Assembly (NCBI RefSeq): GCF_013408795.1
Contig: NZ_JACCCC010000001.1
Location: 3,410,001 to 3,474,000 of the forward strand
Direction of reading: 5' to 3'
DNA length: 64,000 nt
Source of the DNA: Spinactinospora alkalitolerans
Lineage (GTDB): Bacteria > Actinomycetota > Actinomycetes > Streptosporangiales > Streptosporangiaceae
The notes under the pieces were generated by a model. That model saw only the letters and a list, made by a program, of their open reading frames with translations, searched no databases and was not told the DNA's origin. A program made the position numbers and the translations under genes. Below, one piece after another: positions 5,217 through 29,905 of the stretch (positions are counted from its first letter, which is position 1; each line of letters starts with the position of its first letter).

Positions 5217-5870
5217 CTAGTCCTGCTGCGCGGCGCGGGCCGCCCGCGCGGCGGCCCGGAGCTCCTCCGCAGGGGCGTCCCACAAGGCCTGGTCACTGGT
5301 TGCCGCGGCCTTCGCACCGAGGGCCAGCGCCAGACTGACGTCGGTCCGGCGCTGTACGAAACCGGCCGCGACGAACGGGGACAGCTCAGCGCGGACGCCC
5401 TTCTCGATCCTCGGCACCACCGGCCAGGGCATGAGCTCCAACAGGTCGGGCTTGCTCATCGCAGTGGAGGTGACGCTGCGCGGCAGGTTGGAACGGTCGG
5501 TGACGAATACTTTCTGCATGGTCGCCTGCCCCAGTGCCTTGGCCCGCTCCACCAGGGCGGTGCGAGTGCTGACGACGCCGGGGACCCGCAGGGAGCGCAG
5601 GTACTCCAGGGCGCCCTTGTCCTGGGCGAGCCCCCGGCACGAGTCGATGTTGAGGAAGAAGAACTTGCCGCCGTCGCGCAGCTCGGCTACGACGTCGGCC
5701 ATGTCCTTGAGCTCGATGGAGGCGACCACCGCGATCTGGGCCCGCGACGCGTGGAACGCCGAGACGGGTCCGCGGCCGACGACCGAGGCCACCACGGCGC
5801 TCTTCTCGAACGCCTCCCGGAGCCGGTTCAGGTGGGCGATCCGGTTCTGGCGTTCAGGGGTTTCGGACAT
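5217..5870 (-). CDS. glpP: GlpP-type glycerol-3-phosphate-responsive antiterminator
   Basis: 217 residues covering the whole G3P_antiterm family (TIM-barrel-like, RNA-binding). Matches to the Bacillus-type GlpP pattern run through the protein: GKFFFLNIDSCRGLAQDKGA, VVSTRTALVERAKALGQATM, KPDLLELMP, and the phosphate-binding end VAAGFVQRRTDVSLALALGA then AATSDQALW. In Bacillus, GlpP with glycerol-3-phosphate binds the leader RNA of glpD and prevents termination at an intrinsic terminator. Here it is encoded inside the operon, 21 bp after the flavoenzyme, and the operon leader at 12116-12161 carries just such a terminator. Autoregulation by antitermination is therefore likely. Confidence 0.88.
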   Translation of the reverse strand: MSETPERQNRIAHLNRLREAFEKSAVVASVVGRGPVSAFHASRAQIAVVASIELKDMADVVAELRDGGKFFFLNIDSCRGLAQDKGALEYLRSLRVPGVVSTRTALVERAKALGQATMQKVFVTDRSNLPRSVTSTAMSKPDLLELMPWPVVPRIEKGVRAELSPFVAAGFVQRRTDVSLALALGAKAAATSDQALWDAPAEELRAAARAARAAQQD

Positions 5871-5891
5871 GGGTTCTCTTCCTCGTCATTC

Positions 5892-9094: not shown

Positions 9095-9100
9095 CGTGCT

Positions 9101-10624: not shown

Positions 10625-10640
10625 ACGTGCCCCTCCCTTC

Positions 10641-12059: not shown

Positions 12060-12071
12060 TCCCCACACTCA

Positions 12072-12717: not shown

Positions 12718-14151
12718 TCAGGCCATGGGAGCGGCCAGCGGCCAGGGCCGCGCCGCCTCCAGGCGGGCGGCCGCCGCCAAAACCCGGGCGTCCTCGTGCC
12801 TGCGGCCGACGATCTGCAGGCCGACCGGTACTCCGTCGACCATCCCCGCCGGTACCGAGACGGCGGGATGTCCGGACAGGTTGAACGGGAACGTCAGACT
12901 GATGCTTCCCCAGTGGTTCACCGGCCGCCCCGCTATCTCGCTCGGCATGGGCCCCTCCGCGGCGAACGCCGGGGTCTGCGTGGTCGGTGTGACCAGGAAG
13001 TCGGCCTCTCGGAAGACCTCCGCCAGCGTCGCGACGATCCGGTGCCGCCCCTCTTGCGCGTCCACAAGGGCGTCGGCGTCGAGTTTCCTCGCCGCTTCCA
13101 CGTACTGCCGTGCCGTGCCGTCCATCTCGGCGAGCCGCGCCTCGGGCAGGCGGCGCAGCGCTTGATAGACGTCCAAAGCGACGAACGTCTGGTACGTCCT
13201 GCCGCAGTCGGGCCCCAGCCGCACCGGGAAGTCGACCGGGCGCGCGCCGATCGCGCGCACCAGGTCGCGTGCGGCGTCGGACGCCATATCGACCACTCGG
13301 CCATCGCACACCGTGAAGCCGAGGTCACCGCTCCAGAGCACGGCGGAGCCCTCCAGGTCGAGCCGGCCAAGAGTGTCGATCAGCCCCGGTTCCGGACGTG
13401 GCGGGGAGCCGGGATCCCATTCGTCCACTCCCATGACGCAGTCCAGGAACAGGGCGGTGTCGCGTACGGTGCGGGTGAGCGCGCCGTAGTTCTCGGTATG
13501 GGCCATACCGCCGTAGTCGGGACCTCTCGGGACGCGCCCGAACGTCGGTTTGAATCCCACGAGCCCGGTGAACGCGGCCGGGATGCGCAGCGATCCCGCG
13601 CTGTCGGTGCCGGTCGCCAGGGGGACCAGCCCGGCCGCCACGGCAGCCGCCGACCCGCCGCTGGACCCGCCGGGCGTGCGTTCCGGGTTCCACGGGTTGC
13701 GGCAGACGCCGTGCAGCGCCGACGCGGTGAAGGAGGCTCGCCCCATCTCGGGCGAGGCGGTGAGCCCGATCGGGACGGCCCCAGCGGCGCGGGCCCGCTC
13801 GACCATGGTGGCGGTACTGGTGGCGATCGTGTCGGCGAACGCCATGCTCGCCATGGTCAGCGGCCATCCCCGGACCGGCTGGATCTCCTTGACTCCCAAG
13901 GGGACGCCGGCCAGCGGCCCGGGGTCGTCTCCAGCCGCGATCCGGGCGTCGATCTCCGCCGCCCCGGCCGCCGCGCCCTCCTCGTCGACGTGCACGAACG
14001 CGCCAAGGCAGGGATTGACCTGCCTGATGGCCGCCAGTGTCCGCGCCACGACCTCCGTGGCCGGGACCTTCCGCGAGCGCACCCGCTCGGCCAGTACCGC
14101 GGCGCCGTCGAGTGCCGCCTCCGCTTCCGCATTCCGCTCGAGGCCCGTCAT
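12718..14151 (-). CDS. Amidase signature family hydrolase
   Basis: 477 residues from the ATG at 14151. The Ser-cisSer-Lys triad is visible as K88 (GVPLGVKEI), S163/S164 in GGSSGGSAAAVAAG and S187 in TDSAGSLRIPAAF. The sequence just before the nucleophile reads TDSAG instead of the more usual TDGGG. The fold hydrolyses amides, including C-N bonds of carboxamides and some lactam products. It overlaps the stop of the upstream permease by 4 bp (ATGA), so transporter and amidase are coupled and likely act on the same imported amide. The operon has the shared TGCACA repeat at 15756-15784. Confidence 0.92.
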   Translation of the reverse strand: MTGLERNAEAEAALDGAAVLAERVRSRKVPATEVVARTLAAIRQVNPCLGAFVHVDEEGAAAGAAEIDARIAAGDDPGPLAGVPLGVKEIQPVRGWPLTMASMAFADTIATSTATMVERARAAGAVPIGLTASPEMGRASFTASALHGVCRNPWNPERTPGGSSGGSAAAVAAGLVPLATGTDSAGSLRIPAAFTGLVGFKPTFGRVPRGPDYGGMAHTENYGALTRTVRDTALFLDCVMGVDEWDPGSPPRPEPGLIDTLGRLDLEGSAVLWSGDLGFTVCDGRVVDMASDAARDLVRAIGARPVDFPVRLGPDCGRTYQTFVALDVYQALRRLPEARLAEMDGTARQYVEAARKLDADALVDAQEGRHRIVATLAEVFREADFLVTPTTQTPAFAAEGPMPSEIAGRPVNHWGSISLTFPFNLSGHPAVSVPAGMVDGVPVGLQIVGRRHEDARVLAAAARLEAARPWPLAAPMA

Positions 14152-15662
14152 GACAGTCCTCCCACGAGCGCCGTGGCGACGACTAGGCCGGTGACCACGG
14201 GGAGGAAGAGCTTGCGCGCCAGGTCGATCACTGAGACGTTCGTGACCGCGGCAACGGCCACCAGGGAACTCCACACCACGAGCGTCCCTCCTCCGGTCCA
14301 GGTGGAGCCGTTCTGCGCGACGGCCGCGAGCGTGGCGACGTCCAACCCCACTTCCGGGCCGAGCGCGCTGGCGAGCGTGCCGGTGAACGGCAGGGCCGGC
14401 CAGCCCGAGCCATCCAGTCCGACCAGCATGCCGATGATCAGCATGGCGAAGAGGACGAAGAACGGGCTCTGCGGAATGTAGCCTTGCACGCTCATCACCG
14501 CGTCGAGCAGGAAAGCCGGCCCTTGTGCGCCTTCATCGAGACCGAGGATCGGGCCGGAGAAGTCCGACAGGCCGATGAAGACGAAGCCCGCCACCGGAAT
14601 GACGACTCCCATCATTCGGAAGGCCTCCGAAATACCGGAGACGAAATTGTCCGCGCATACCTCCAGCCATTCCCGGCGGTCACTGATGAGAGCGCTGACC
14701 AGCAGCAGCACGCCAGCCGTCCCGCCGACGAGTGGAGCGCCCAGTCCGCTGTCCACCGGCGGCACCAGCGAGGTGAGCTTGCCCAGTAGCAGGTACGCCA
14801 GCAGGACACCGAAGCAGCCGGGAACGAGGACGGCCAGAAACTGGGCACGGCGGCCGGGAGGAGGCTGCCCGTCTTGAGACTCGACCGCCTCGGTGTCCGC
14901 ACCGGCGAAGTCGGCCGTGTGAGAGGACGTGTCGCCGTCTCCCGTTGCCGCCGCCCGCGCCGCACCGGCGGCTGGCCGCGAGCGCGGCCGCAACGCGATC
15001 CACCCCGCGTCCGAGGCCGCCACTGCCCTCAGGTCGCGGCGTATGTACATCAGGTAGGACAGGGAGAGTGCGACGACTCCGGTGATCACGGCTATCAGCA
15101 GCGCGCGGTCAGCGATCCGTGCCGCGTCCACGCCCGCGCCGCTGGCGGAGAGGCCGGGTGCCACGCCCATGATGTAGTCGGTGGACAGGGCCATGCCCTG
15201 ACCCGCGATCGCGATCGCGATGGCGCATCCGAGTGGGGACAGCCCCACTCGCAGGGCGGCGGGGATGAGGATGGCGGCGATCAGCGGCAGCATCGGGGTC
15301 GGCCAGAATACGCTGGAAAGGCCGAAGGTCACCGCGGCCAGCACGATGTAGGCGGCGGCTCCAGTGCGCATCAGTCCCTGGAAGGGACGCACCATCAGTT
15401 GGTCGGCGCCCAGCGTCTGCAGTGTTCGCAGCAGCGCCAGCACGATCGCGATGATCATGAAGATTGTGAACAGCTCGGTGGCCGCGGTGAGGAATGCGGA
15501 GAAGATCGCCTGTAGGCCGGTCAGAACGCTGCCGCTGAAGGCTAGGGCGGTGAGGAATGTGGCGATGATCGCGGGGGCGACGATATTCTTCTTCGCCACC
15601 ACCAAGGCGATGACGGTGGCGATACCGCCGAGGTAGATCCAGTGAGCGGGGGTGAGTTCCAT
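14148..15662 (-). CDS. Integral membrane permease of unassigned family (paralogue 1)
   Basis: 504 residues from the ATG at 15662, which has GGGAGAAAGG upstream. About 11-12 hydrophobic segments are seen, with a hydrophilic, low-complexity loop near residues 235-285 that splits two halves. Distinctive stretches are GQGMALSTDYIMGVAPGLSA and GLDGSGWPALPFTGTLASAL. They recur nearly unchanged in the protein at 16104-17786. I do not recognise a named family; the two-half plan with re-entrant Gly/Pro-rich motifs resembles ion-transporter-superfamily carboxylate carriers. Coupling to the amidase points to uptake of an amide or organic anion. Confidence 0.8.
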   Translation of the reverse strand: MELTPAHWIYLGGIATVIALVVAKKNIVAPAIIATFLTALAFSGSVLTGLQAIFSAFLTAATELFTIFMIIAIVLALLRTLQTLGADQLMVRPFQGLMRTGAAAYIVLAAVTFGLSSVFWPTPMLPLIAAILIPAALRVGLSPLGCAIAIAIAGQGMALSTDYIMGVAPGLSASGAGVDAARIADRALLIAVITGVVALSLSYLMYIRRDLRAVAASDAGWIALRPRSRPAAGAARAAATGDGDTSSHTADFAGADTEAVESQDGQPPPGRRAQFLAVLVPGCFGVLLAYLLLGKLTSLVPPVDSGLGAPLVGGTAGVLLLVSALISDRREWLEVCADNFVSGISEAFRMMGVVIPVAGFVFIGLSDFSGPILGLDEGAQGPAFLLDAVMSVQGYIPQSPFFVLFAMLIIGMLVGLDGSGWPALPFTGTLASALGPEVGLDVATLAAVAQNGSTWTGGGTLVVWSSLVAVAAVTNVSVIDLARKLFLPVVTGLVVATALVGGLS

Positions 15663-15755
15663 GGCGCCGCCTTTCTCCCGGCGTCGGGGGAACGCCGGTG
15701 ACATGGGCATTGCCAGAAATCTCACCTATAGCGGTGAAATGATCAAGAATGAAAG

Positions 15756-15784
15756 CGCACAAGAGTGAATCGCCAGATTGTGCA
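15756..15784 (-). promoter_or_regulatory. Inverted repeat CGCACA-N17-TGTGCA upstream of permease 1
   Basis: CGCACA at 15756-15761 and TGTGCA at 15779-15784 flank 17 bp, about 94-122 bp upstream of the permease start at 15662. The same arrangement occurs at 17882-17910 and 23634-23663 before the other units of this island, so it is a candidate operator for the island's regulator, probably the PucR protein. Confidence 0.6.
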
Positions 15785-15799
15785 GCGTGCCAGGTCGCT

Positions 15800-16019
15800 T
15801 CCGTGCCGGTGTCGGATGAGGTCGAGAGGGCGGGCGGACGCCGCGTAGGAAACCCGGCGGACCGCTTCGGGGATGTGGGCGAGGTCCGCCGGTGATGCGG
15901 GTAACGGGACGGCGGGGTTGCCCAGCATGGCCGTAGTTCCGGGACCCGTGGTCGGTCCGGACCCGGGAGGCGTCCTCGCCGAAGGCGACGTCCCTGATGT
16001 GGTGCAGCGCCTCGATGCC
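15800..16019 (-). pseudogene. ISAs1-type transposase C-terminal remnant
   Basis: Between the two permease genes, minus-strand translation gives GIEALHHIRDVAFGEDASRV followed by RT, the end of the DDE domain of ISAs1-type transposases. A frameshift then leads into AMLGNPAVPLPASPADLAHI and the decayed C-terminus. No start, no catalytic Asp residues and no terminal repeats remain. It shows the spacer between the paralogous permeases was once hit by an insertion sequence. Otherwise the gap 15663-16103 holds no gene. Confidence 0.6.
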
Positions 16020-16103
16020 CCGGGTCCATACGAGGAGGACTCAGCGGAGCCATATGAGCCGCGGTAGTCGGCCTCGCGATTGACGGCGGCGGCGATTCCC
16101 CGC

Positions 16104-17786
16104 CTAGAAAACGGCGATCGCGACCGTGGTGGAGATGATCAGTCCTGCGACCACGGGAAAGAACGCGATGCGAACCAGGTCGATGACGGAGATCCGGGCG
16201 AAACCGGCCACCGCGAGAAGCGAGGACCAGGCGATGAGCACCCCGCCGCCGGTCCAGATGGAGCCCATCTGACCGATCGCCGCGAGCAGCGCCGGATCGA
16301 AGCCCACCGCGGGGCCGAGGCTGCCGGCCAAGGCTCCGGTGAGCGGGAGTCCGGAGAACCCCGAGCCATCGAGACCGGTGATCATTCCAATGATCAGAAG
16401 GCTGAATCCGACCACGAACGGATTGCTGGGAATGGCCCCTTGCGCCGCTGTGACCAGCTCGAACAGGAAGCTGGGGGCGGGCGTCCCTTCGGTGAGGCCC
16501 ATGATGGACCCGGCGAAGTCGGAATTGCCGATGAAGAAGAAGCCGGCGATCGGGATGACCACCCCCATCGCCTTGACCGAGAATATGAGCCCGTCAACGA
16601 TGTGGGCGGCACAGCTCTCCAGTGCCCGGTGTCCGTCCAGCGATATCGACGCCATGAGCAGAATCAGCGCGACGACCCCTCCGACCAGCGCCGCCGCGTC
16701 GTTGCCGAGGAGCTCGGGAACCAGGTCGGTGAACTTCCCCAGCATCATGTAGACGACCAGCCCGATGAGTACGAGCGGGACCGCTACAGCGAATGACTTG
16801 GAGCGGAGCACGGGCGTGCGCGCCGCCTCCGCCGTGTCCTCGGCCCGTTCCCGGCCTCCCCCGGCATCGTCGGCGGTCACCGGCGCGGGCTCCGGGTCTC
16901 CGATGCGCTGCGTGGGCACCGGGGACCCGGGATTCGACGGCGCGGCCCCGGTCCCCGCCCCGCCTCCGGAGCCGCTCGTCGCACCGGCCCCAGCCGGACC
17001 GCTGTTCCCCGCTCCGACCTCGGCCGGCTCCGGGGCGCGCGCGGGTCCCGCCGCCGGCTCAGGAGCCGGTTTCGCCGATGCCGCGGCGGCCTTCCTGCCG
17101 ATCACGGCATCGGTCCTGGCCTCCCAGCGCTCCAGCAGTTTCGGATCGGGGCGCACGATGGTGCGCCGAATCATCAGGTAGCCCAGCAGCAGAGCGGTGA
17201 GTCCGGTGATCGAGGAGAGCACCAGCGCGTAGTCCGCGACGCGGCTCGCGTCCGTGCCCGCCGCGGTCGCTGACAGTCCTGGGGCGACCTGGATGACGTA
17301 GTCGCTGGAGAGGGCCATCCCCTGGCCGGCGATCGCCATGGACAGGGCGGCCGCCAGCGGCGACAACCCGGCGCGGACGGCAGCGGGGAACAGGATGGCC
17401 CCGATCAGCGGAACGGCGGGAGTGGGCCAGAAGAAGAGACTGATGATGAAGGACACCAGCGCGATGACCCAGAAGGAGGTGTGCCCGTTGTTCATGACGT
17501 AGCGGAACGGCTCGATCATCCGCCGGTCCGCCCCGAGCGCCCGTAGTGCCCCCAGCAATGCGGTGACGAAGGCGATGATGAGGAAGATGTTGAACAGCTC
17601 CGCCGCCGCGGTAAGGCTTGCTTTAAAGATGGACTGCAGGCCTGCTGCGAAGCTTCCGGTAAATGCCCATGCGGTCAGAAAAGTCGCCACGACCGCGGGG
17701 ATCACGACATTCTTCTTGGTGGACATCACGAAAATGATGACCACTATTCCAGCCAAATAGATCCAGTGCGCGGAAGTCAGGACCAT
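16104..17786 (-). CDS. Integral membrane permease of unassigned family (paralogue 2)
   Basis: 560 residues from the ATG at 17786, with GGAGGGG directly upstream. It is clearly homologous to the permease at 14148-15662: GQGMALSSDYVIQVAPGLSA, FFWPTPAVPLIGAILFPAAV and GLDGSGFSGLPLTGALAGSL all have counterparts there. It differs by a longer Pro/Ala/Gly-rich linker at about residues 225-320 between the two membrane halves. It is divergent from the gamma-glutamyltransferase-like gene, with the repeat TGCACA-N17-TGTGCA in between. Two copies of one carrier in one island suggest either two related substrates or a heteromeric transporter. Frame extension upstream to 18119 was rejected because it lacks coding character. 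Confidence 0.82.
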   Translation of the reverse strand: MVLTSAHWIYLAGIVVIIFVMSTKKNVVIPAVVATFLTAWAFTGSFAAGLQSIFKASLTAAAELFNIFLIIAFVTALLGALRALGADRRMIEPFRYVMNNGHTSFWVIALVSFIISLFFWPTPAVPLIGAILFPAAVRAGLSPLAAALSMAIAGQGMALSSDYVIQVAPGLSATAAGTDASRVADYALVLSSITGLTALLLGYLMIRRTIVRPDPKLLERWEARTDAVIGRKAAAASAKPAPEPAAGPARAPEPAEVGAGNSGPAGAGATSGSGGGAGTGAAPSNPGSPVPTQRIGDPEPAPVTADDAGGGRERAEDTAEAARTPVLRSKSFAVAVPLVLIGLVVYMMLGKFTDLVPELLGNDAAALVGGVVALILLMASISLDGHRALESCAAHIVDGLIFSVKAMGVVIPIAGFFFIGNSDFAGSIMGLTEGTPAPSFLFELVTAAQGAIPSNPFVVGFSLLIIGMITGLDGSGFSGLPLTGALAGSLGPAVGFDPALLAAIGQMGSIWTGGGVLIAWSSLLAVAGFARISVIDLVRIAFFPVVAGLIISTTVAIAVF

Positions 17787-17881
17787 GGCCCCTCCAAGCA
17801 GGGTACAAGCCGTGCGGGAACGAGGGAAGGCGATATGCGGAAATTTTCCTGACCGCCCACTCGGATGAACAAGCGGGAAAC

Positions 17882-17910
17882 TGCACATTACCTTCGCAGA
17901 GCTTTGTGCA
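17882..17910. promoter_or_regulatory. Perfect inverted repeat TGCACA-N17-TGTGCA
   Basis: TGCACA at 17882-17887 and TGTGCA at 17905-17910 with 17 bp between. It lies about 96-124 bp upstream of permease 2 and within the divergent region shared with the gamma-glutamyltransferase-like gene. A looser cluster of the same half-site, TGTGCACTGTGC at 18002-18013, lies closer to the latter gene. Confidence 0.65.
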
Positions 17911-18085
17911 ACCTGCGCAATAGGTGTCGTCATACCACTGATGAGCTGCGGTTCAGTGCACCGCGCCGCGGAGGGACCGCCCGTTCGCGGCCGCGCACGT
18001 CTGTGCACTGTGCCTGAATCCGCGTCGGTTTCCACGGCACTGTGTCCATAGAAGGTCGGCATCGACCCGCCGGACACTGAGCCGT

Positions 18086-19702
18086 GTGAATACGGCACCA
18101 CGCGATGTCCAGATCCCACCGCGGGGCCCCGCGGTCTCCCATGGCGGTATGGTCGCCGCCGGCCACCCCTCCGTGAGCATGGCGGGCGCGCGCGTGCTCG
18201 CCGATGGCGGCAACGCCGTCGACGCCGTCCTCGTCATGGCCGCGGTCTCCTGGCTGGTGCTCCCCGGCCAGTGCGGTATCGGAGGCGACGCCTTCGCCCT
18301 GTATCGCGGCCCTGACGGCCGCGTGACCTCGTTCGGCGGGAGCGGCTACGGCCCAGATGGCGCCGGCACCGGTTTCTACCGCGAGCTGGGGCTTACGGCG
18401 ATCCCTCTCAGCGGAGCACTGGCCGTGGCGGTTCCCGGCGCGGTCGCGGCCATCGCCGCGCTGCACCGTGCGGGCGCCTCCCGACCTCTCGCGGAGCTGT
18501 GGGCACCGGTCGCCACCATGGCGGAGACGGGCGTGCCCTGCACCGCCAAGACCCACGACGACGTCTCCCAGCATGCCGAGTCGCTCGCTCGCGACCCCGA
18601 TGCCGCCCGCGCCTTCCTCCCCGGTGGGCGCCCGGTCCGGACGGGACAGCGGGTACTGCATCCCGCCCTGGCGCAGACGCTGCGCCGGCTGGCCGACGAT
18701 CCGGCCTGCCTGTACCGGGGGGAGCTCGGCGAACGCGCGGTAGCGCTGCTCACCGCCGCGGGCGCCCCCTTCTCCGGGGCCGAGTGGGAGGCGGGCGCCG
18801 ACGTCTCGGGCGAACCCTCGATCACCGCGGAGTACGGGGGCCTACTGGTGCACCAGACGCCGCCGCCCACCCCGGGGTGGATGGTCCTGCAGCAGGCCGG
18901 AATATGCGCAGACCGGCTCGGCTCACTGCCCTGGCTCGGATCCGACGCCGTGCACTGGCTCGCGAGCGCGGCGCGCACCTCCTTCGCCGACCGCGCGCGA
19001 GCGGGGTCCGACACCCCCTTCTGGCGAACTCTGCTCGAACCGGAGTCCTTGCGGGTGCGCCGGGAGCGCATCGAGAACGGGACGGCGCCCCGGCCCGGTG
19101 CGATGGACATCGACGGCGACACCACCTCAATGGTCGCGGTGGACGGTGCCGGACGCGCCGTCGGCCTGATCCATTCGCTGGCCCACACCTTCGGCGCCCG
19201 GCTTTCGGTCCCCGGCACCGGGATCATGCTGAACAACCGGTTGGGACGCGGGGCCTACCTCGCCGAAGGGCACCCCAACGCGGTGGCCCCGCGCCGCAGG
19301 CCGCTGCACACGCTGAACGCCTGGCTCGTCACCGATGACGTGGGGGAACTGCGACACATCGGCAACGTCCCCGGCGGTGACGGCCAGGTCCAGTGGAACA
19401 CCCAGCTGCTCTCGCACCTGATCGATCACGGTACCGATCCGTACACAGCGGTCAGCGCCCCGCGTTTCACCGTCTTCCCCGGCAGCGACGCCGACGTCCT
19501 CGAACAGGCCCCGGAGCTGCGGTGCGAATCCCGTTTGGACCCCTCTGTGCTGCGGCGGCTGCACGACCTCGGACACCCGGTGCGTCGGGTGGGCGCATGG
19601 GGGGCCGGAGGCAGTGCGCAGGTGGTGAGTCTCGACGCCGCCACCGGCGCCCTGCTCGGCGGCTCCGATCCCCGCCAGGACGGGGTGGCGATCGGTGTCT
19701 GA
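18086..19702 (+). CDS. Gamma-glutamyltransferase homologue, cytoplasmic
   Basis: 538 residues from a GTG at 18086, the normal GGT length. The N-terminal part has ASVSMAG-like and GGNAVDAVLVMAAVSWLVLP, and GGDAFALYRGPDGRV. The autoprocessing region reads DIDGDTTSMVAVDGAGRAVG, with Thr346 as the probable nucleophile; the usual T-T-H after the cut site is T-T-S here. No signal peptide or membrane anchor is present, unlike classical periplasmic or secreted GGTs. GGT-fold Ntn hydrolases cleave gamma-glutamyl or acyl amides. It overlaps ridA by 8 bp and leads the operon with ETF and aldehyde dehydrogenase, so an intracellular amide-cleaving role in the pathway is likely. Confidence 0.88.
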   Translation: MNTAPRDVQIPPRGPAVSHGGMVAAGHPSVSMAGARVLADGGNAVDAVLVMAAVSWLVLPGQCGIGGDAFALYRGPDGRVTSFGGSGYGPDGAGTGFYRELGLTAIPLSGALAVAVPGAVAAIAALHRAGASRPLAELWAPVATMAETGVPCTAKTHDDVSQHAESLARDPDAARAFLPGGRPVRTGQRVLHPALAQTLRRLADDPACLYRGELGERAVALLTAAGAPFSGAEWEAGADVSGEPSITAEYGGLLVHQTPPPTPGWMVLQQAGICADRLGSLPWLGSDAVHWLASAARTSFADRARAGSDTPFWRTLLEPESLRVRRERIENGTAPRPGAMDIDGDTTSMVAVDGAGRAVGLIHSLAHTFGARLSVPGTGIMLNNRLGRGAYLAEGHPNAVAPRRRPLHTLNAWLVTDDVGELRHIGNVPGGDGQVQWNTQLLSHLIDHGTDPYTAVSAPRFTVFPGSDADVLEQAPELRCESRLDPSVLRRLHDLGHPVRRVGAWGAGGSAQVVSLDAATGALLGGSDPRQDGVAIGV

Positions 19703-20165
19703 GGCCGAGTTCTCCCCCGCCGCCGCACCGCGCCCCCAGGGGCGCTACGTGACCGCCGTCGCCGGAGCGGGCCTGCTCGTCAGCGCCGGCATGACGCCGC
19801 GGGCCGGGGGCGAGTTGGTGCTACGCGGCAGGGCCGGTGCGGAGCTGGACACCGTAGCCGCGGCCGGTGCGGCCCGGATCGCCGCCCGCAACGCGCTGGC
19901 GGCGCTCGCCGGCATCGCCGGCGGCCCGGACGGGATCGGCCGTCTGTTGCGGATGACCGTGTACGTGGCCTGCACCGACGACTTCACCGCCCTGTCGGCG
20001 GTCGCGGACGGCGCCTCCGCGGCACTCGCCGAGATGCACGGGGCCGAGGCGCTGCCCGCCCGCAGCGCGATCGGCGTCCGCGCGCTCCCCGACGGCGCTC
20101 CGGTCGAGGTGGAACTGATGGCCGCGGCCGTGACCGAGAACCCCGCACGGAGGAGACAACCGTGA
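19695..20165 (+). CDS. RidA/YjgF family protein
   Basis: 156 residues from a GTG at 19695. The RidA core is visible: GRYVTAVAGAGLLVSAGMTP, ARNALAALAGIAGGPDGIGR, MTVYVACTDDFTALSAVADG and the active-site strand LPARSAIGVRALPDGAPVEV followed by EL, which keeps the substrate-binding Arg and a conserved Glu. RidA proteins hydrolyse reactive imines and enamines released by amine oxidation. It overlaps the gene before (8 bp) and after (4 bp, GTGA), so all three are translationally coupled. An imine-forming oxidation step in this pathway is implied. Confidence 0.9.
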   Translation: MSEAEFSPAAAPRPQGRYVTAVAGAGLLVSAGMTPRAGGELVLRGRAGAELDTVAAAGAARIAARNALAALAGIAGGPDGIGRLLRMTVYVACTDDFTALSAVADGASAALAEMHGAEALPARSAIGVRALPDGAPVEVELMAAAVTENPARRRQP

Positions 20166-21970
20166 AGATCATGGTATTCGCCGCTCCCGGAGCACAGGGG
20201 CCGTCGAAGGGCGTCGTCGACGCCCTCGACCACGCGGTCGCCCTGCGCGCGGGGATCCGCGCCCAAGGCGGGAATGCCGCTGTCGTCCTCGCCGCGCTCA
20301 TCGAGGCCGAGGGCTCCCCCGGAGGAGAGGGAGCCGACGGATGGGTGTGCGAGCACCCGGTGGCCGATCAGGTGCTGCTGGTCCGCGCGACCCCGGACAC
20401 CCCCGTCGACTCGCTGCGCGCGGCCCGGACGCTCACCCGGTTGGCCCGCCGGGTCCGTCCCGACGTGGTGCTGTGCGCCGCCGGCTCCGACGGGCGCGAA
20501 GCCGTGGAACTCGCGGCCCGGGCCTCCGAACTGGCGCTGCTGCCCGCAGCGACCTCGGTCGTGCGGCTGGCCCCGGAGCAGCGTTCCTTGGTCGCGCTGC
20601 GGGAGGTCGAGCACGGCTGGCAGGAGATGCGCGTGGACCTCCCGTGCGTCATCGGCGTCTCCAGGGGGCCCGATCCCCGCCCGGATCCCGAGGGCCGCAA
20701 CGACGCCGAGGTACGCGTGCTCGACGCGGCCGAACTGCTCGGATCGGACCGGCCGGGCTCCGCCCGCGGCACCGCAGAGTCCCCTCCGCCCTCCCGCATC
20801 CTCCACTCCTCCTCGGCGCCGACGCCCCGGGCCGGCATGCGCACCGGCGACCCCCGCACGGCCGTCCGCCACCTCGCGGCCGCGCAGGCCCGCACCTCGC
20901 CCCTCCCCCGGCCGCGGCGCCCGATCGGCGCACGCCGCCAGGTCTGGGTGCCCGTCCAGTACCGGGACGGCCTCTGCCATCCGGCCTCGCTCGAAGGCCT
21001 GGACCTGGCCGCGCGCCTGCACCCGGCTCTGGCAGCGGTCGCCGTGGTCCCCTGCGCGGCCCCGGAGCAGGCCCGGGCACTGGCCCCGGAACTCGGCCGG
21101 TGCGGGGCCGAGCAGGTGCTCGCCCTGGTCGCCGACGGCCTGGAGAGCCGTTCCCCGGCCGGATACGCCCGGGCGCTCTCCTGCGCCGCGGCGGAGGAGG
21201 CCCCACTGGCGGTGATCGGCGCCGGTACCGCGGACGGCCGGGAGTACCTGGCCCGGCTGGCCGTCCGGCTGAACACGGACCTGATCGGCGACGTCGTGAA
21301 CGCACGCGTGGACGCGCCACCGCAGGCAGGTCCCGCCGCTTTCGTGTGGACGCGGGCGGCCGGCGCCGACCGGGAGCACCTTCACCTGGTCACCCGCGCC
21401 GCGTGCGCGGTGGCCGCGCTGCGTCCGGGCTGCCGCCCCCACCCCCGGTCCCCGAGCGAGCCCGCACCGCCCGAGCTCCGGATGCTGCGTCCGGGGATCG
21501 GTGTGCCCGACGGGCGAATCACCGAACTGGACCGCTGGGAGGACCGATTGGCCCGGCGGCACGTCGAACAGGCGGCGGTGGTGGTGCACCTGGGCGCCGG
21601 GGTGTCCGCCGACACGGCCGAGGCCGCCCACCGGATCGCGGACGCGCGCGGGTGGACGGTCGGCGGTTCCCCGCAGGCGGTGCAGGCGGGGCTGGTCCCG
21701 CCACAGATGGAGATCAGCGTGGAACGGCTGTGCGTCTTTCCGTCGGTCGCGCTCTGCCTGGGCGCCGAACCGCGGGACCTGGACGCCGTCCAGGGCGCCG
21801 GCCTGGTCATCGCGGTGCCCGCGTTCTCCGGGCGGGGACGTGCCGTCCCCGGCGCCGATCTGACCGTCGACACCGACGCCGACCGGGTCCTTCGGACCCT
21901 CTCCACCGACCGTCCGCCGTCTCCGGTACGGCCGGGGACACAGGCGGCGACCGATTCCGCGAACCATTGA
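20162..21970 (+). CDS. Fused electron transfer flavoprotein beta-alpha protein, divergent
   Basis: 602 residues. Residues about 1-190 resemble EtfB, with DALDHAVALRAGIRAQGGNA and VRPDVVLCAAGSDGREAVEL. A variable Pro/Arg-rich linker covers about 200-260. Residues 265-590 resemble EtfA, with HPALAAVAVVPCAAPEQARA, LAVRLNTDLIGDVVN and the C-terminal domain start VVHLGAGVSADTAEAAHRIA. The FAD motif of normal EtfA (S-R then Q-V-G-Q-T-G) is not kept: SPQAVQAGLVPPQMEISVER stands in its place. ETFs normally shuttle electrons from dehydrogenases to ETF:quinone oxidoreductase, but neither partner is nearby. It may be an unusual electron carrier or a carrier that no longer binds FAD in the usual way. Confidence 0.78.
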   Translation: MKIMVFAAPGAQGPSKGVVDALDHAVALRAGIRAQGGNAAVVLAALIEAEGSPGGEGADGWVCEHPVADQVLLVRATPDTPVDSLRAARTLTRLARRVRPDVVLCAAGSDGREAVELAARASELALLPAATSVVRLAPEQRSLVALREVEHGWQEMRVDLPCVIGVSRGPDPRPDPEGRNDAEVRVLDAAELLGSDRPGSARGTAESPPPSRILHSSSAPTPRAGMRTGDPRTAVRHLAAAQARTSPLPRPRRPIGARRQVWVPVQYRDGLCHPASLEGLDLAARLHPALAAVAVVPCAAPEQARALAPELGRCGAEQVLALVADGLESRSPAGYARALSCAAAEEAPLAVIGAGTADGREYLARLAVRLNTDLIGDVVNARVDAPPQAGPAAFVWTRAAGADREHLHLVTRAACAVAALRPGCRPHPRSPSEPAPPELRMLRPGIGVPDGRITELDRWEDRLARRHVEQAAVVVHLGAGVSADTAEAAHRIADARGWTVGGSPQAVQAGLVPPQMEISVERLCVFPSVALCLGAEPRDLDAVQGAGLVIAVPAFSGRGRAVPGADLTVDTDADRVLRTLSTDRPPSPVRPGTQAATDSANH

Positions 21971-21984
21971 CCCCAGGGGGAACC

Positions 21985-23445
21985 GTGACACCGACGCATG
22001 AGGGACGCAACTACATCGCAGGCGAGTGGGTCGCCTCGGCCTCGGGCCGGACCTTCGACCGCCGCAACCCCGCCGACCAGGACGACCTGGTCGGCGTCTT
22101 CCCCGATTCCACCGCCGCGGACTCAGCCGATGCGGTGTCCGCCGTGGCCGACGCGGCACCTGCCTGGGGCCGAGTCCCGGCGCCCGAGCGGGCGCTGGTC
22201 CTGCAACGCGCCGCCGACATCTTGGAGCGCCGAGCCGACGAGCTCGCCGTCGAACTGGTCCGGGAGGAGGGCAAGACCCTCGCCGAAGCCACCGCGGAGA
22301 CCCGCCGGACACCGCAGAATCTGCGCTTCTACGCCGGTGAGGCGCTGCGGATCGCCGGTGACTCCTTCCCCTCCGAGGGACAGGGCGCGGTCTACACCAC
22401 GCGCGAACCCGTGGGTGTGGTGGGCGCGGTGACCCCGTGGAACTTCCCGCTCAACATCCCCTCGCGCAAGCTCGGCCCGGCGCTGGCCGCGGGCAACGGC
22501 GTGGTGTACAAGCCCTCTCCGGTCTCGCCGCTGTTGGGGCAGCGGCTGGTGGAGGCACTGCTGGAGGCGGGGCTCGCACCGGGGGCGATCGCGCTGGTGC
22601 AGGGCGGCGCGGAGGCCGGGGCCGCCGTGGTGGGCGACCATCGGGTGGGCGCGGTCACGTTCACCGGGTCGACCGAGACGGGCCGCCGGATCCACAGCGC
22701 CGTCGGACCCTCGCGGCGCTGCCAACTGGAGATGGGCGGCAAGAACCCGGTGCTGGTCCTGCCCGATGCCGACCTGGACCGCGCGACCGCGCTGATCGTC
22801 AAGGGCGCCTTCGGCCTCAGCGGACAGGCCTGCACCGGGACCAGCCGGGTCCTGGTGCACGAATCGGTGCACGACCGACTGGTGGAACTCCTCGCGGCGG
22901 CCGCGGACTCGCTGACGGTAGGGCCCGGCCTCGGCGACGGCGTCGACATGGGGCCGCTCGCCGCCGACTTCCAGTTGCGCAAGACGCTCGACTACGTCGC
23001 GATCGGGTGCAAGGAAGGCGCCGAACCGGTGGCCGGGGCGCAGCGCCCCGCCGGCCCCGGCACGGACCGGGGGTTCTTCGTCCGGCCGACGGTGTTCACC
23101 GGGTGTACCACGGACATGCGGATCGTCCGGGAGGAGATCTTCGGCCCCGTCATCGCGGTGCAGCGGTTCGGCACCTTCGAGGAGGCGCTCACCCTCGCCA
23201 ACGACTCCGATTACGGGCTGGCCGCCGGGATCGTCACCCGCGATCTGAATCGGGCGTTGGAATTCGCCCGGAGCTCGAAAAACGGACTGGTGAAAATCAA
23301 CCAACCGACCACGGGAATGGGCATGACCGTCCCCTTCGGCGGCCTCAAGGAATCCAGCACCCAGACATTCAAAGAGCAGGCCGGCAATTCGATGATGATG
23401 TTCTACACCCAGGAGAAGAGTGTTTACATCTCCGCTCTTTCCTGA
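21985..23445 (+). CDS. Aldehyde dehydrogenase (2,5-dioxovalerate/KGSADH-like)
   Basis: 486 residues from the GTG at 21985 with AGGGGG just upstream. ALDH landmarks are clear: VGAVTPWNFPLNIPSRKLGP, FTGSTETGRRI, catalytic Glu in QLEMGGKNPVLVLPDA and catalytic Cys in GLSGQACTGTSRVLV, EEIFGPVIAVQRF and the C-terminal PFGGLKESSTQTFKEQ. The GQACTGTSR form and overall length are typical of alpha-ketoglutarate semialdehyde-type dehydrogenases. It starts 14 bp after the ETF gene and probably oxidises a semialdehyde made when the amine substrate is deaminated. Its exact aldehyde is not readable. Confidence 0.93.
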   Translation: MTPTHEGRNYIAGEWVASASGRTFDRRNPADQDDLVGVFPDSTAADSADAVSAVADAAPAWGRVPAPERALVLQRAADILERRADELAVELVREEGKTLAEATAETRRTPQNLRFYAGEALRIAGDSFPSEGQGAVYTTREPVGVVGAVTPWNFPLNIPSRKLGPALAAGNGVVYKPSPVSPLLGQRLVEALLEAGLAPGAIALVQGGAEAGAAVVGDHRVGAVTFTGSTETGRRIHSAVGPSRRCQLEMGGKNPVLVLPDADLDRATALIVKGAFGLSGQACTGTSRVLVHESVHDRLVELLAAAADSLTVGPGLGDGVDMGPLAADFQLRKTLDYVAIGCKEGAEPVAGAQRPAGPGTDRGFFVRPTVFTGCTTDMRIVREEIFGPVIAVQRFGTFEEALTLANDSDYGLAAGIVTRDLNRALEFARSSKNGLVKINQPTTGMGMTVPFGGLKESSTQTFKEQAGNSMMMFYTQEKSVYISALS

Positions 23446-23633
23446 CCCGTCGGGGCGCGGAGGCGGAAGAGCACGGTGCGGACCACCGCACTCCGGATGA
23501 ATTGCGCGGCGGCCACATTCGTACGACCCCGCCGCCACATCACGACGGCCACCACCGAACCGGCGCCGCCGCCGGGCCGTGCGCCATCACGCGCCTGCAC
23601 GGCTTACAGCCGTAGGAAAAGCTCAGTGCACGG

Positions 23634-23663
23634 TGCACATCGATCTCCGCGGGACTCTGTGCC
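23634..23663 (+). promoter_or_regulatory. Inverted repeat TGCACA-N18-TGTGCC upstream of the diiron-protein gene
   Basis: TGCACA at 23634-23639 and TGTGCC at 23658-23663 enclose 18 bp, about 85-114 bp upstream of the ATG at 23748. This matches the repeats before permease 1 and permease 2 in half-site, spacing and distance. The 302-bp gap 23446-23747 holds no gene and otherwise only the GAAAGGGAG ribosome site at its end. Confidence 0.6.
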
Positions 23664-23747
23664 GAATCACCATAGGACCGGATGGGGCGCGTCCGTAGCG
23701 TGGAGGCGTGCAGAAATCCGGGGCACCAGGGAAAGGGAGCACCAAAA

Positions 23748-24461
23748 ATGCAGGAATTGTTGCAACGGGACGAATTCCGCCAGGCCCTCCAGGACGCCAT
23801 CAAGGGCCGGGAGGCCAAGAACGCGTCATTCAGCAAGGCATGGGCCGAAGGGACGCTCAAGCACGAGCACTTCGCTCGCTGGGCTGAGAACCACTACCAC
23901 TACGTGGGCCCCTTCGCCGATTACCTCTCCTACGTCTACGCCAACATCCCCGACGCCTTCACCGGGGCGAAGGACTTCACGCTGCAGAACATGTACGAGG
24001 AGGAGCTGGCCGACATCCGGCACACCGATCTGCTCATCCGGTTCGCTGAGGCCTGCGGGACCACGCGGGAGCGGATCGAGGATCCCTCCAACATGAATCC
24101 CGTCACGCGTGGACTGCAGTCCTGGTGCTACGCCGTCGCGATGCGCGAGCACTTCGTGGTCGCCACCGCGGCCCTGGTAGTGGGGCTGGAGTCCCAGGTG
24201 CCCAGCATCTACCGCAAGCAGATCGTTCCCCTGCGGGAGGTCTACGGGTTCACCGAGGACGAGATCGAGTTCTTCGACCTGCACATCACCTCCGACGAGG
24301 TGCACGGCGAGCGGGGCTACCAGATCGTTCTCGACCACGCCGACACCCCTGAACTGCAGCAGCGCTGCCTGCAGATGTGCCGCTGGGGCGCGGAAATGCG
24401 CTTCTCCTACACACAGGCCCTCTACGACACCTACGTCAAGCCCGACCTGATGACCGCCTGA
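23748..24461 (+). CDS. Heme-oxygenase-like diiron protein (HDO; TenA/PqqC/CADD-like)
   Basis: 237 residues, all-helical TenA/PqqC fold. All six metal ligands of the CADD-type diiron site are present with matching spacing: E85 and H92 (in MYEEELADIRHTDLL), E148 (GLESQ), then H179, D183 and H186 (FFDLHITSDEVHGERGY). HDOs use a diiron centre and oxygen to decarboxylate, N-oxygenate or cleave C-C bonds of small acids and amines. The start at 23748 is supported by GAAAGGGAG. Downstream genes encode Rieske protein, ferredoxin reductase and another Rieske protein, a natural electron supply for the diiron site. I am confident of the family; the substrate is unknown and could be an amine linked to the amidase and RidA upstream. 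Confidence 0.85.
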   Translation: MQELLQRDEFRQALQDAIKGREAKNASFSKAWAEGTLKHEHFARWAENHYHYVGPFADYLSYVYANIPDAFTGAKDFTLQNMYEEELADIRHTDLLIRFAEACGTTRERIEDPSNMNPVTRGLQSWCYAVAMREHFVVATAALVVGLESQVPSIYRKQIVPLREVYGFTEDEIEFFDLHITSDEVHGERGYQIVLDHADTPELQQRCLQMCRWGAEMRFSYTQALYDTYVKPDLMTA

Positions 24462-24575: not shown

Positions 24576-24935
24576 TTGACCGAATGGGTAGAGGTCGCCA
24601 CGCTCCAGGAACTCCGCCGACGCAAGCGCAAGCTCGTCATCATCGGCGACACCCGGATCGCGCTCTTCCTCGTCGATGACCGGGTGTACGCGCTGGCCGA
24701 CACCTGCGTCCACAAGCAGAGGTCATTGACCAAGGGCACGGTCCTGCACGGCCGGGTCATCTGCCCCGGCCACCAGTGGGCCTTCGACCTCGAAAGCGGC
24801 CGAGCCGATGACCGCGACGAGTGCCAGCCGACCCACGACGTGCGGATCGACGACTCCACCGTCTACCTCGATCCCCGACCCCACCCCGCCCCGCACAGGG
24901 CGCTGCAGGAAGCGCGAATGTCCAAGGAGCCGTGA
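24576..24935 (+). CDS. Rieske-type [2Fe-2S] ferredoxin 1
   Basis: 119 residues. The Rieske cluster ligands are C44-x-H46 (DTCVHKQRSL) and C63-x-x-H66 (VICPGHQWAFDLESG), in the bacterial ferredoxin arrangement with a tail beyond residue 90. The start is a TTG at 24576; no in-frame ATG or GTG occurs nearby, and the ribosome site is weak (GGGACAG). It overlaps the ferredoxin reductase start by one base (TGATG), so the two are coupled. It probably relays electrons from the reductase to the diiron protein or another oxygenase. Confidence 0.88.
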   Translation: MTEWVEVATLQELRRRKRKLVIIGDTRIALFLVDDRVYALADTCVHKQRSLTKGTVLHGRVICPGHQWAFDLESGRADDRDECQPTHDVRIDDSTVYLDPRPHPAPHRALQEARMSKEP

Positions 24936-26152
24936 TGCTGGAAACCATCCTGATCGTCGGCGCCGGCCAGACCGCCGCCGTCGCGATACGCACCCTTCGC
25001 CGCCGCGGCTTCGACGGGCGCATCATCCTCATCGGTGCCGAAGCCGATCTGCCCTACCAGCGCCCGCCGCTGTCAAAGGAGTACCTGCTCGGTGAGCAGG
25101 ACCGCTCCGAACTGGACCTGCTGCCGGCGCAGTGGTGCGAGCACAACGGCGTCGAGACCTGCACCGGAGCGGAAGTCCGGCGCGTGGACACCGGCGGGGG
25201 AGGCGTCGAGCTGTCCGATGGTTCGCGGATCAGCGGCGATGCCGTGCTGCTGGCCACGGGAGGCCGCCCTCGGCGGCTGAGCGTCGACGGCGATGAGCAC
25301 GTGCACTACCTGCGCACCCTCGCCGACGCCGACCGGATCCGCACGTTGATCCGCCCCGACGCACACGTCATCGTGGTCGGTGCGGGCTTCATCGGTTCGG
25401 AGCTGGCCTCCTCCGCTCGAACTCGGGGAGCCGCCGTGACCGTGCTGGAACAGGCCGCCTGTCCGTTCGGAAACGTCGTCGGTCCTGTGATCGGAGACGT
25501 GTGCGCCGCGGCGCAACGGGAACACGGAGTGGACCTGCGCACAGCGACGACGGTCACCGAGGTCGGTCGCACCTCCGCCGGAACGTTCGTGCGCACCGGA
25601 TCCGGAGCGGTGATCGAGGGAGACATCGTGGTAGCCGGCGTCGGAATGCTGCCCAATGCCGAGCTCGCCCGCGATTCCGGGATCGCGACCGACGACGGCG
25701 TCCTGGTGGACGAGTACTGCCGGACCTCCGCGGCGAACGTCTTCGCAGCAGGCGATGTGGCCCGCCACCATCACCCGCTGTTCGGCCGGCGCATGCGCGT
25801 GGAGCACTTCGACAACGCCAGCAAGCAGGGTATGACGGCCGCCAAGAACATCCTGGGCAGACCGACGGCCTACACGGATCCGCACTGGTTCTGGTCGGAC
25901 CAGTTCGGTCTCAATCTGCAGTGCATCGGGCGCACCTCCAACGCCGACGACATCGTCATCCGCGGCCGGCTCGACGCCTTCGACTTCACCGCCTTCTACC
26001 TGGAGGAGGGGGTGCTCCGGGCGGCGTTCACCGTGGAGCGCGGCGGCGACGTGCCCCTTGCCGGGGCGCTCATCACCCAGCAGGTCAGGCCGGACGTCGA
26101 CGCGCTGCGCGACGAGGACCACGACCTCGCCGATCTGCTCACGACCGCATAA
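24935..26152 (+). CDS. FAD-dependent ferredoxin reductase (oxygenase-type)
   Basis: 405 residues from the ATG at 24935. Two dinucleotide folds are seen: FAD motif LIVGAGQTAAVAIRTLRRRG at the start and NAD motif VIVVGAGFIGSELASSARTR at about residue 147. The FAD-closing motif TSAANVFAAGDVARHHHP and the C-terminal reductase domain with HWFWSDQFGLNLQCIGRTSN are typical of BphA4/PuxA-type reductases. It takes electrons from NADH and reduces a Rieske or [2Fe-2S] ferredoxin. Coupling to the preceding Rieske gene makes that its probable partner. No oxygenase alpha subunit is nearby, so the diiron protein is the likely terminal acceptor. Confidence 0.93.
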   Translation: MLETILIVGAGQTAAVAIRTLRRRGFDGRIILIGAEADLPYQRPPLSKEYLLGEQDRSELDLLPAQWCEHNGVETCTGAEVRRVDTGGGGVELSDGSRISGDAVLLATGGRPRRLSVDGDEHVHYLRTLADADRIRTLIRPDAHVIVVGAGFIGSELASSARTRGAAVTVLEQAACPFGNVVGPVIGDVCAAAQREHGVDLRTATTVTEVGRTSAGTFVRTGSGAVIEGDIVVAGVGMLPNAELARDSGIATDDGVLVDEYCRTSAANVFAAGDVARHHHPLFGRRMRVEHFDNASKQGMTAAKNILGRPTAYTDPHWFWSDQFGLNLQCIGRTSNADDIVIRGRLDAFDFTAFYLEEGVLRAAFTVERGGDVPLAGALITQQVRPDVDALRDEDHDLADLLTTA

Positions 26153-26245
26153 GCCCTCACGCACGTCGCGTTCCTTCCCGATGTGGGACCACGGTCCCAC
26201 CCGATCCCAGCGGCCGGACCCCGGCCCGCGTGGAGGAGACATTCC

Positions 26246-26602
26246 ATGGAGTTCGTTCGGGTCGCCCGCTCCGGACAGATCCCCGAGGGGATCGTCCGCC
26301 GCTTCTTCGTCAACGGCGTGGAACTCGCCGTTGCCCGCTCCGAAGAGGGAGCGGTGCACGTCATGTCCAACTACTGCACACACCTGGACTGCCTGCTGTC
26401 CTCCGGCAGGGTGACCGACGACGGGTTGCTCTGCTCGTGCCACGGCAGCGTCTTCGACTTCGATTCCGGGGAACCCATCACCCCACCGGCGACTCGGCCC
26501 GTGCGCGTGTTCGAGGCCAAGGAGGAGGACGGCCAGGTCTACGTCGCCCTCCCTGCCGAGACCCAGCGCACGGAACGGCCCAAGCGGCGGCTGAGCACGT
26601 AG
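26246..26602 (+). CDS. Rieske-type [2Fe-2S] ferredoxin 2
   Basis: 118 residues from ATG 26246 with GGAGGAGA upstream. Cluster ligands are C44-x-H46 (NYCTHLDCLLSSG) and C63-x-C65-H66 (LLCSCHGSVFDFDSGEP); two extra cysteines (C49 and C65) sit beside the ligands, as in high-potential Rieske proteins that form a disulphide. It differs clearly from Rieske 1, so the two may have different potentials or partners. It follows the reductase by about 90 bp. One of them could receive electrons from the reductase and the other could deliver them to the diiron enzyme. Confidence 0.87.
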   Translation: MEFVRVARSGQIPEGIVRRFFVNGVELAVARSEEGAVHVMSNYCTHLDCLLSSGRVTDDGLLCSCHGSVFDFDSGEPITPPATRPVRVFEAKEEDGQVYVALPAETQRTERPKRRLST

Positions 26603-26674: not shown

Positions 26675-28054
26675 GTGAATCGAAGAGAACCGGCCGGCGA
26701 GGGGCGGCGCAACCGCTGGGCACTGCTGCCCCTGCTCCTCGCGACGTTCACCGGGACAGTGGCGAACAGCATCGTCAACGTCCCGCTCGCCCTGATCGTG
26801 GCCGACCTCGGCGTCACGGTCGCGGCGGGGTCGCTGATCGTCGTGGCCTTCGCCGCGGTTCTGGCCTCGCTGATGCCCGTCACAGGGTGGCTCGCGGACC
26901 GCTGGGGGCGCCGCAGAGTGTTCGTCTGCGCGATGGGGGCCATGGCGGGCTCCTCCGCTGGGGCCGCGTTCGCGCCCGATCTCGGGATCCTCGTGCTGTG
27001 CAGGGCCGCGCAGGGAGCCGCGTGCGCGGCCGTTCTTCCCACCGTCATGGCGCTGCTGGTGACCTCCTCGGGAGAGCGGCGCCGAAGCCGGACGCTCGGA
27101 CTGTGGGCGGCGGCGAACGGCCTGGGCCAGGCGGCCGGGCCGGCGCTGGGCGGGGCCCTGGCCACCTGGTTCGGCTGGCGCGCGGTGTTCTGGCCAATCG
27201 TCGCGCTGGCGCTGCTCGCCCTGGCCGGAGCGCTGTGGCTGCTCCCCCGGGACGCGCCCCGGCCGCTGCGCCTGGACTGGGGCGGCGCCCTGATGCTCAC
27301 CCTGGCCGCCGCCCTGATGATGGGCTCGGCGGCGGCGACCGCCCCGCTCGGACCGGCATCCCCCCTCGTCTGGGGGAGCGCTTTCGCCGGGATCGCCGCG
27401 ACGTGCGCGTTTCTGCTGGTGGAACGGGGACGGGCGGACCCGTTCCTGCATCTGCACCTGCTGCTGGAAACGCGCTACCTCCGCTCGTGCCTGGCCGCAT
27501 TGGCACAGATGTTCTGCCTGGGAGCTCTGCTGATCGGGATCCCCCTCTACCTCACCGGCCAGAAAGGCGCCACCCCCCTGGCCTCGGGCCTGGTCCTGCT
27601 GAGCATCCCCGTGACGATGGCGCTGCTCGCTCCGGTGGTCGGTGCCCTCAGCGATCGCTGGGGCGCCCGCCACGCCCTGCGGTTCGGGCTCGTCTTGCTC
27701 ATCATCGGTCAGCTCCTGACCGTGGCCGCGGTGGCTCTCGATTCGGGAGTGGGTCCCTTGCTCATCACCGCCCTGATCGCCGCGGGTGCCGGCATGGCGT
27801 CCGTGCAGACCCCCGCGGCGACCGGGGCGTCGCGTTCGCGCCTGGGCCGGCACGGGACCGGACTCGGGCTGTTCAACCTGGTGCGCTTCGGCGGTTCGGG
27901 GCTGGGGGCGGCATGGGTCGCACTGGCGGTGGACCGGTCGCCGATGTTCGGATCGGCCTTCGCCGTCTGCGCAGGGGTCGCGGTCATCGGGCTCGTCGGC
28001 GCGTTCGCGGGTCGGGACCCCGGCCCCGATACGCGCCCGGCGCCTCGGAACTGA
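26675..28054 (+). CDS. MFS transporter, DHA2/EmrB-QacA type
   Basis: 459 residues from a GTG at 26675. About 13-14 hydrophobic segments and the DHA2 motifs are visible: NSIVNVPLALIVADLGVTVA in TM1, GWLADRWGRRRVFVCAMGAM after TM2, and the motif-C-like GLGQAAGPALGGALATWFGW in TM5. DHA2 members export drugs, metals or metabolites in exchange for protons. As the last plus-strand gene of the diiron and Rieske block, it may export a product or a toxic intermediate. It converges on the PucR gene, whose stop lies 26 bp away. Confidence 0.9.
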   Translation: MNRREPAGEGRRNRWALLPLLLATFTGTVANSIVNVPLALIVADLGVTVAAGSLIVVAFAAVLASLMPVTGWLADRWGRRRVFVCAMGAMAGSSAGAAFAPDLGILVLCRAAQGAACAAVLPTVMALLVTSSGERRRSRTLGLWAAANGLGQAAGPALGGALATWFGWRAVFWPIVALALLALAGALWLLPRDAPRPLRLDWGGALMLTLAAALMMGSAAATAPLGPASPLVWGSAFAGIAATCAFLLVERGRADPFLHLHLLLETRYLRSCLAALAQMFCLGALLIGIPLYLTGQKGATPLASGLVLLSIPVTMALLAPVVGALSDRWGARHALRFGLVLLIIGQLLTVAAVALDSGVGPLLITALIAAGAGMASVQTPAATGASRSRLGRHGTGLGLFNLVRFGGSGLGAAWVALAVDRSPMFGSAFAVCAGVAVIGLVGAFAGRDPGPDTRPAPRN

Positions 28055-29856: not shown

Positions 29857-29905
29857 GTGCCCACATCCCGGTACTCGTTTTCGGCAAAGTGTACATTGCC
29901 GGACA

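Follow-up and report, generated by a model that had tools for sequence, protein, structure and literature searches.

Known PucR-type systems and the Spinactinospora locus

PmfR of Arthrobacter nicotinovorans pAO1 is a PucR-type activator with a palindrome, GTTT-N14-AAAC, that has a long spacer. The sites of three other PucR-type regulators comprise two 21-bp repeats (GabR), 24 bp (AdeR) and 17 bp (PutR), and PucR of Bacillus subtilis acts as activator and repressor (PMC7652997); structural models of MabR were built on half-sites spaced by one helical turn (PMC11617747). In this study, we analyzed a window of 64,000 nucleotides from Spinactinospora alkalitolerans (contig NZ_JACCCC010000001.1, positions 3,410,001 to 3,474,000), in which three inverted repeats, O1 to O3, lie before two permease genes and a gene for a diiron protein, in a cluster that also encodes a PucR-family regulator (positions 28081 to 29856 of the window). 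From sequence comparison we propose, with a probability of roughly 0.83, that O1 to O3 are the operators of one local regulon that is bound and activated by this PucR.

The proposed system resembles that of GabR, the activator of gabTDP in Corynebacterium glutamicum, in that a local PucR-family regulator serves a catabolic operon and inverted repeats lie upstream of the promoter (PMC7652997). GabR differs in lacking a GGDEF-like domain and in using its two repeats, whereas each site here is one repeat of 29-30 bp with widely spaced half-sites and an accessory half-site. The Bacillus regulators AdeR and PutR are also PucR-type and have one inverted-repeat site, and the window PucR weakly matches the AdeR model, but it stays far under the AdeR cut-off, and target genes and repeat length are different. 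PmfR shares the long spacer, and its model is also weakly matched, but its half-sites, genes and substrate are others. The same TGCAC half-site occurs in the NtrC box, TGCACCAnnnTGGTGCA (PMC8743547), where it is read by a Fis-type helix-turn-helix (HTH); unlike the sites described here, this box has a short spacing, is a sigma54 enhancer and is not read by a PucR protein. Literature searches gave no match to the motif or the gene cluster. The regulon is new, and local catabolic regulation by a PucR-type protein is of a kind already known.

Three copies of an inverted repeat

The three repeats and their accessory elements are located as follows.

15756 to 15784, minus strand: operator O1, before permease 1 and the amidase gene; TGCACA-N17-TGTGCG in gene orientation (CGCACA-N17-TGTGCA on the forward strand), 93 bp from the permease 1 start codon
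15787 to 15790, minus strand: accessory distal GCAC of O1
17882 to 17910, minus strand: operator O2, before permease 2; exact TGCACA-N17-TGTGCA, 95 bp from the permease 2 start codon and 175 bp ahead of the divergent GGT gene
23627 to 23631, plus strand: accessory distal TGCAC of O3, a 7-bp direct repeat with the O3 distal half-site
23634 to 23663, plus strand: operator O3, before the diiron gene; TGCACA-N18-TGTGCC, 84 bp from the start codon, at the same position in most orthologues

A first-pass annotation of this DNA had described three repeats with the same half-sites, spaced by 17 or 18 bp and situated about 85-125 bp before genes. Coordinates, spacers (N17, N17 and N18) and distances agree with our measurements, but only O2 is an exact copy; in O1 and in O3 a single outermost base departs from the motif. 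None of the three departs from the inner core, GCACA-N17/18-TGTGC.

Pattern searches of the 6,684,050-bp genome found the exact motif once, as O2, with 0.02 copies expected by chance in the window. Allowing up to one mismatch, there are four N17 sites in the genome, two of them in the cluster, and 12 N18 sites. O3 is therefore unremarkable taken alone, and the support for it comes from conservation in relatives, not from rarity. The core is present 11 times, including O1 to O3. We rejected the eight other core copies as regulon members: four lie in copies of a dispersed repeat about 120 bp long, the other four lie in open frames and look coding, and the promoter geometry of O1 to O3 (see below) was seen in none of the eight. 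Two further N17 sites with up to one mismatch, at C1:4426485 and C1:4595366, were also set aside, one being probably coding and the other lying near an unrelated HTH gene. The dispersed repeat holds CGCACA-N17/18-TGTGCG by coincidence; its copies L188, L189, L194 and L195 correspond to genome positions C1:1056052, 1468082, 3891354 and 4863253, and another is found in L187.

The site is conserved before cluster genes

Besides this genome, 13 of the same family have a homologous cluster, as do Nocardioides, Pseudonocardia and Halopolyspora and four more genomes of the class. We sampled 46 regions that lie ahead of permease or diiron genes and found a site with at most one mismatch in 35 of them (21 at N17 and 14 at N18), compared with a mean of 0.045 sites in shuffled regions. 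At this threshold none of the 46 regions had a site with a spacer of N16 or N19-N23, and the remaining spacers gave scattered single matches, except for four at spacer 25. The site stands before cluster genes in several actinobacterial families and orders. The first-pass annotation had named two outcomes that would speak against its proposal, a motif that is frequent throughout the genome or one that is absent before the same genes in relatives; we observed neither.

The permease 1-amidase pair is preceded by the site also in L164, L178 and L179, and by a candidate in L177. In Halopolyspora, sites lie before a second permease gene and before the MFS gene, and L107 has an exact site within the divergent PucR/diiron intergenic region. 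Among relatives the half-sites are kept while the spacer sequences diverge, hence simple duplication does not explain the sites.

Operator and promoter elements keep a fixed geometry

Anchoring the alignments on the proximal half-site, we compared 21 permease promoters and 17 diiron promoters. The corresponding elements in the window are these.

15741 to 15746, minus strand: -35 TTGATC of permease 1, 9 bp after O1
15718 to 15723, minus strand: -10-like GAGATT of permease 1, 17 bp after the -35
17867 to 17872, minus strand: -35 TTGTTC of permease 2, 9 bp after O2
17843 to 17849, minus strand: -10-like stretch of permease 2, weak, with GAAAAT at 18-bp spacing
23673 to 23678, plus strand: -35 position TAGGAC of the diiron gene, non-consensus, 9 bp after O3
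23696 to 23701, plus strand: -10 TAGCGT of the diiron gene

Of the 21 permease promoters, 17 show TTG 9 bp past the proximal half-site, and the class has a nAnnnT hexamer 32-34 bp past it. TAnnnT stands 32 or 33 bp past it in 14 of the 17 diiron promoters, and the other offsets from 15 to 45 gave none. The resulting layout has the -35 element 9 bp past the operator, the -10 element after a further 17 bp, and the operator centre at about -59 to -60, so that the inverted repeat lies upstream of the -35 at a conserved distance, as in activator-type promoters. Each promoter class has one poor hexamer, the -35 in diiron promoters and the -10 in permease promoters. These fixed distances, together with the poor hexamers, fit activator-dependent promoters and strengthen the earlier suggestion that the spacing is that of an activator site. 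On the GGT side of the O2 intergenic region we looked for a conserved promoter geometry and saw none.

Two elements had escaped the first-pass annotation: a third half-site, and what may be a weak site for autoregulation where the PucR gene starts (described below). The former reads (T)GCAC and is set 2 bp distal to TGCACA; GCA occurs at exactly this offset in 22 of 38 sites.

The site co-occurs with an orthologue of the window PucR

The regulator gene and the site at its start are located as follows.

28081 to 29856, minus strand: PucR-family regulator with GAF-like, GGDEF_2 and HTH_30 domains
29858 to 29886, minus strand: weak candidate autoregulatory site, TGCCGA-N17-TGGGCA, abutting the PucR ATG and kept in close orthologues

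The window protein contains HTH_30 (PF13556; E 1.3e-15, 57 bits against a cut-off of 27) and a GGDEF-like domain (PF17853; E 2.9e-11, above the cut-off). For the N-terminal PucR domain (PF07905), the best orthologue reached 33.2 bits, against a curated cut-off of 33.5, and the window protein was not reported at E <=1. It missed the NCBIfam equivalog cut-offs for AdeR (43 of 700 bits), CdaR (50 of 612) and PmfR (30 of 800). By its domains the protein is a PucR-family regulator, and by curated cut-offs it is not AdeR, CdaR or PmfR. The HTH is the best-conserved region among the orthologues, and that of the window protein weakly matches the Fis-type HTH_8 profile and ZraR.

A PucR orthologue is encoded in 15 of 297 genomes of the family, and the 14 with the diiron gene are all among these (Fisher p 4e-23); the fifteenth, G203, carries PucR and MFS genes on a contig fragment. 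The exact site is present in 11 of the 14 diiron-bearing genomes versus 35 of the 283 others. Ten of these 11 genomes have it inside the PucR cluster, and in the eleventh (G025) it stands ahead of permease 2 and GGT on a separate contig. Each actinobacterial genome checked that has the site before cluster genes encodes one clear PucR orthologue, scoring far above the paralogues; in the Nocardioides genomes and G465, this orthologue lies just beyond the first stretch inspected or on another contig. Seven genomes with the diiron gene and without a PucR orthologue (six Bacilli and one actinobacterium) have no site, the best matches having 3-5 mismatches, and the six Bacilli carry both permease and diiron genes. 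What was a guess in the first-pass annotation, that this PucR is the regulator, thus has strong comparative evidence behind it.

Among family genomes that have an exact site and no cluster, the site in L126 lies near a distant PucR paralogue, suggesting that further members of the PucR family may recognise these half-sites; the other such loci listed had no cluster or PucR neighbour. A conserved exact site, TGCACATGGCACCCTGTGACTGATGTGCA, is found in L120 and L126 (genomes G224 and G164), in a genus without the cluster.

Proposed mechanism and alternative explanations

From the sites, their conservation, the promoter geometry and the co-occurrence with PucR, we infer the following mechanism. 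PucR would bind TGCACA-N17/18-TGTGC[A] via its Fis-like HTH_30 domain at promoters of the sigma70 type, with the operator centre some 59-60 bp ahead of the transcription start, and would thereby activate the permease 1-amidase genes, permease 2, and the diiron oxygenase, ferredoxin reductase, Rieske and MFS genes. The distal (T)GCAC, 2 bp away, probably contributes a further contact. As inducer we presume either the imported substrate or one of the intermediates of the pathway. PucR may also repress its own gene via the weaker site at its start; the repeat at 29858-29886 could serve such autorepression, and its conservation could in part reflect selection on the ribosome-binding site and the start codon. 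The comparisons place the existence of the operator and of the regulon beyond reasonable doubt; comparative genomics makes PucR very likely to be the binder, and activation by it is likely.

Several observations weigh against the proposal. L097 and L102, where the ALDH (aldehyde dehydrogenase) and diiron genes nearly abut, lack the diiron-proximal site; it was not found within 300 bp upstream in L164/L165 and is weak in L104-L106. The half-sites are 23-24 bp apart, wider than in the one-turn model of MabR, and work on MabR did not predict this geometry. The seven genomes without PucR and site are phylogenetically distant, six of them low-GC Bacilli, which limits their weight, and PucR sits in the cluster, so that co-occurrence cannot fully separate it from the other cluster genes.

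The link between PucR and the site being comparative, and exact sites being present in 35 family genomes without the diiron gene, we considered whether the operators are bound by a regulator whose gene lies elsewhere, such as a global one for nitrogen or carbon. This appears unlikely: a global regulator would have many sites and we found no credible one in the genome outside the cluster, the site tracks the PucR orthologue, and PucR is the sole regulator recognised in the conserved cluster. Sites of TetR, GntR, LacI and CRP also usually differ from a layout with a 17-18 bp spacer. It is similarly improbable that PucR binds here chiefly as a repressor of the catabolic promoters. The dual role of B. 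subtilis PucR (PMC7652997) and the weak site overlapping PucR's own start would agree with repression, but the sites lie entirely upstream of the -35 at a fixed distance, and the one poor hexamer per promoter is as expected for activator dependence. Two of the three sites precede paralogous permeases, as copies spread by permease duplication would; this origin, like chance matching, has a negligible probability, since the diverged spacers beside kept half-sites, the site before the unrelated diiron gene, and the conservation, spacer and shuffle controls refute it.

Activation by the local PucR being our preferred explanation, we tentatively suggest, as a possibility that we do not favor, that the complete operator consists of three half-sites, TGCAC-NN-TGCACA-N17/18-TGTGC, and that a PucR dimer or tetramer with a Fis-type helix ([LMIV]HRNTMLYKL) reads TGCAC as NtrC does. 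If this were true, PucR-family operators would become predictable from the recognition helix, and no PucR system before this one would have been linked to a haem-oxygenase-like diiron catabolic pathway. Operators have been defined for few PucR-type regulators; the one described here is accompanied by a phylogenetic footprint, an exact promoter geometry and a set of about 20 orthologous promoters. Two orphan permeases, an amidase, a CADD-like diiron oxygenase and the electron-transfer partners of the latter fall into one predicted inducible pathway, and screens for growth or reporter activity offer a way to its substrate. This opens to direct testing both a diiron-oxygenase pathway that is uncharacterised and a regulator family that has been little studied.

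Genes of the cluster and related clusters

The genes next to the operators are the following.

12718 to 14151, minus strand: amidase; the likely start at 14151 overlaps the permease 1 stop
14148 to 15662, minus strand: permease 1, no Pfam or NCBIfam family
16104 to 17786, minus strand: permease 2
18086 to 19702, plus strand: GGT-like enzyme
19695 to 20165, plus strand: RidA-like protein
20162 to 21970, plus strand: ETF-domain fusion, absent from the relatives' clusters
21961 to 23445, plus strand: ALDH, nearest to 2,5-dioxovalerate/alpha-ketoglutarate-semialdehyde dehydrogenases
23748 to 24461, plus strand: CADD/PqqC-like haem-oxygenase-fold diiron protein
24821 to 26152, plus strand: ferredoxin reductase
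26183 to 26602, plus strand: Rieske ferredoxin
26675 to 28054, plus strand: MFS transporter

Permease 2 is divergent from the GGT-like, RidA, ETF-fusion and ALDH genes. The diiron gene is followed by the genes for ferredoxin reductase, Rieske ferredoxin and MFS transporter and then by the convergent PucR gene. The first-pass annotation had joined amidase, permease, ETF and oxygenase genes into one regulon. This stands for the permease, amidase and diiron sites but not in full for the remainder, as the GGT side lacks the conserved geometry and the ETF gene occurs only here; the case for membership of the GGT/RidA/ETF/ALDH operon is weaker. In L015/L171, L104-L107 and L164-L166, ALDH and usually also GGT lie downstream of the diiron gene on the same strand, a placement that supports membership in the pathway and does not prove control by O2.

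Among the homologous clusters, the ETF-domain fusion gene between RidA and ALDH is seen in this genome only. An adjacent glycerol-type cluster without operators occupies positions 5220-12068 of the window (glycerol 3-phosphate-responsive antiterminator, FAD oxidase, GlpD, GlpK-like kinase and MFS). Permeases 1 and 2 are paralogues, neither belonging to a Pfam or NCBIfam family, and their close relatives are mainly from halophilic or alkaliphilic Bacilli. In Bacillus taeanensis (L048:9193-16571), a cluster without PucR and without the operator encodes a creatininase-like hydrolase, a permease, a diiron protein about 70% identical to that of the window, an aldehyde dehydrogenase, an HbpS-like protein and a GntR/FCD regulator. 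These neighbours suggest, at best, an amide or lactam substrate. Bacilli with a related gene set and without PucR and operator, one cluster having the GntR regulator, offer a case of regulator replacement.

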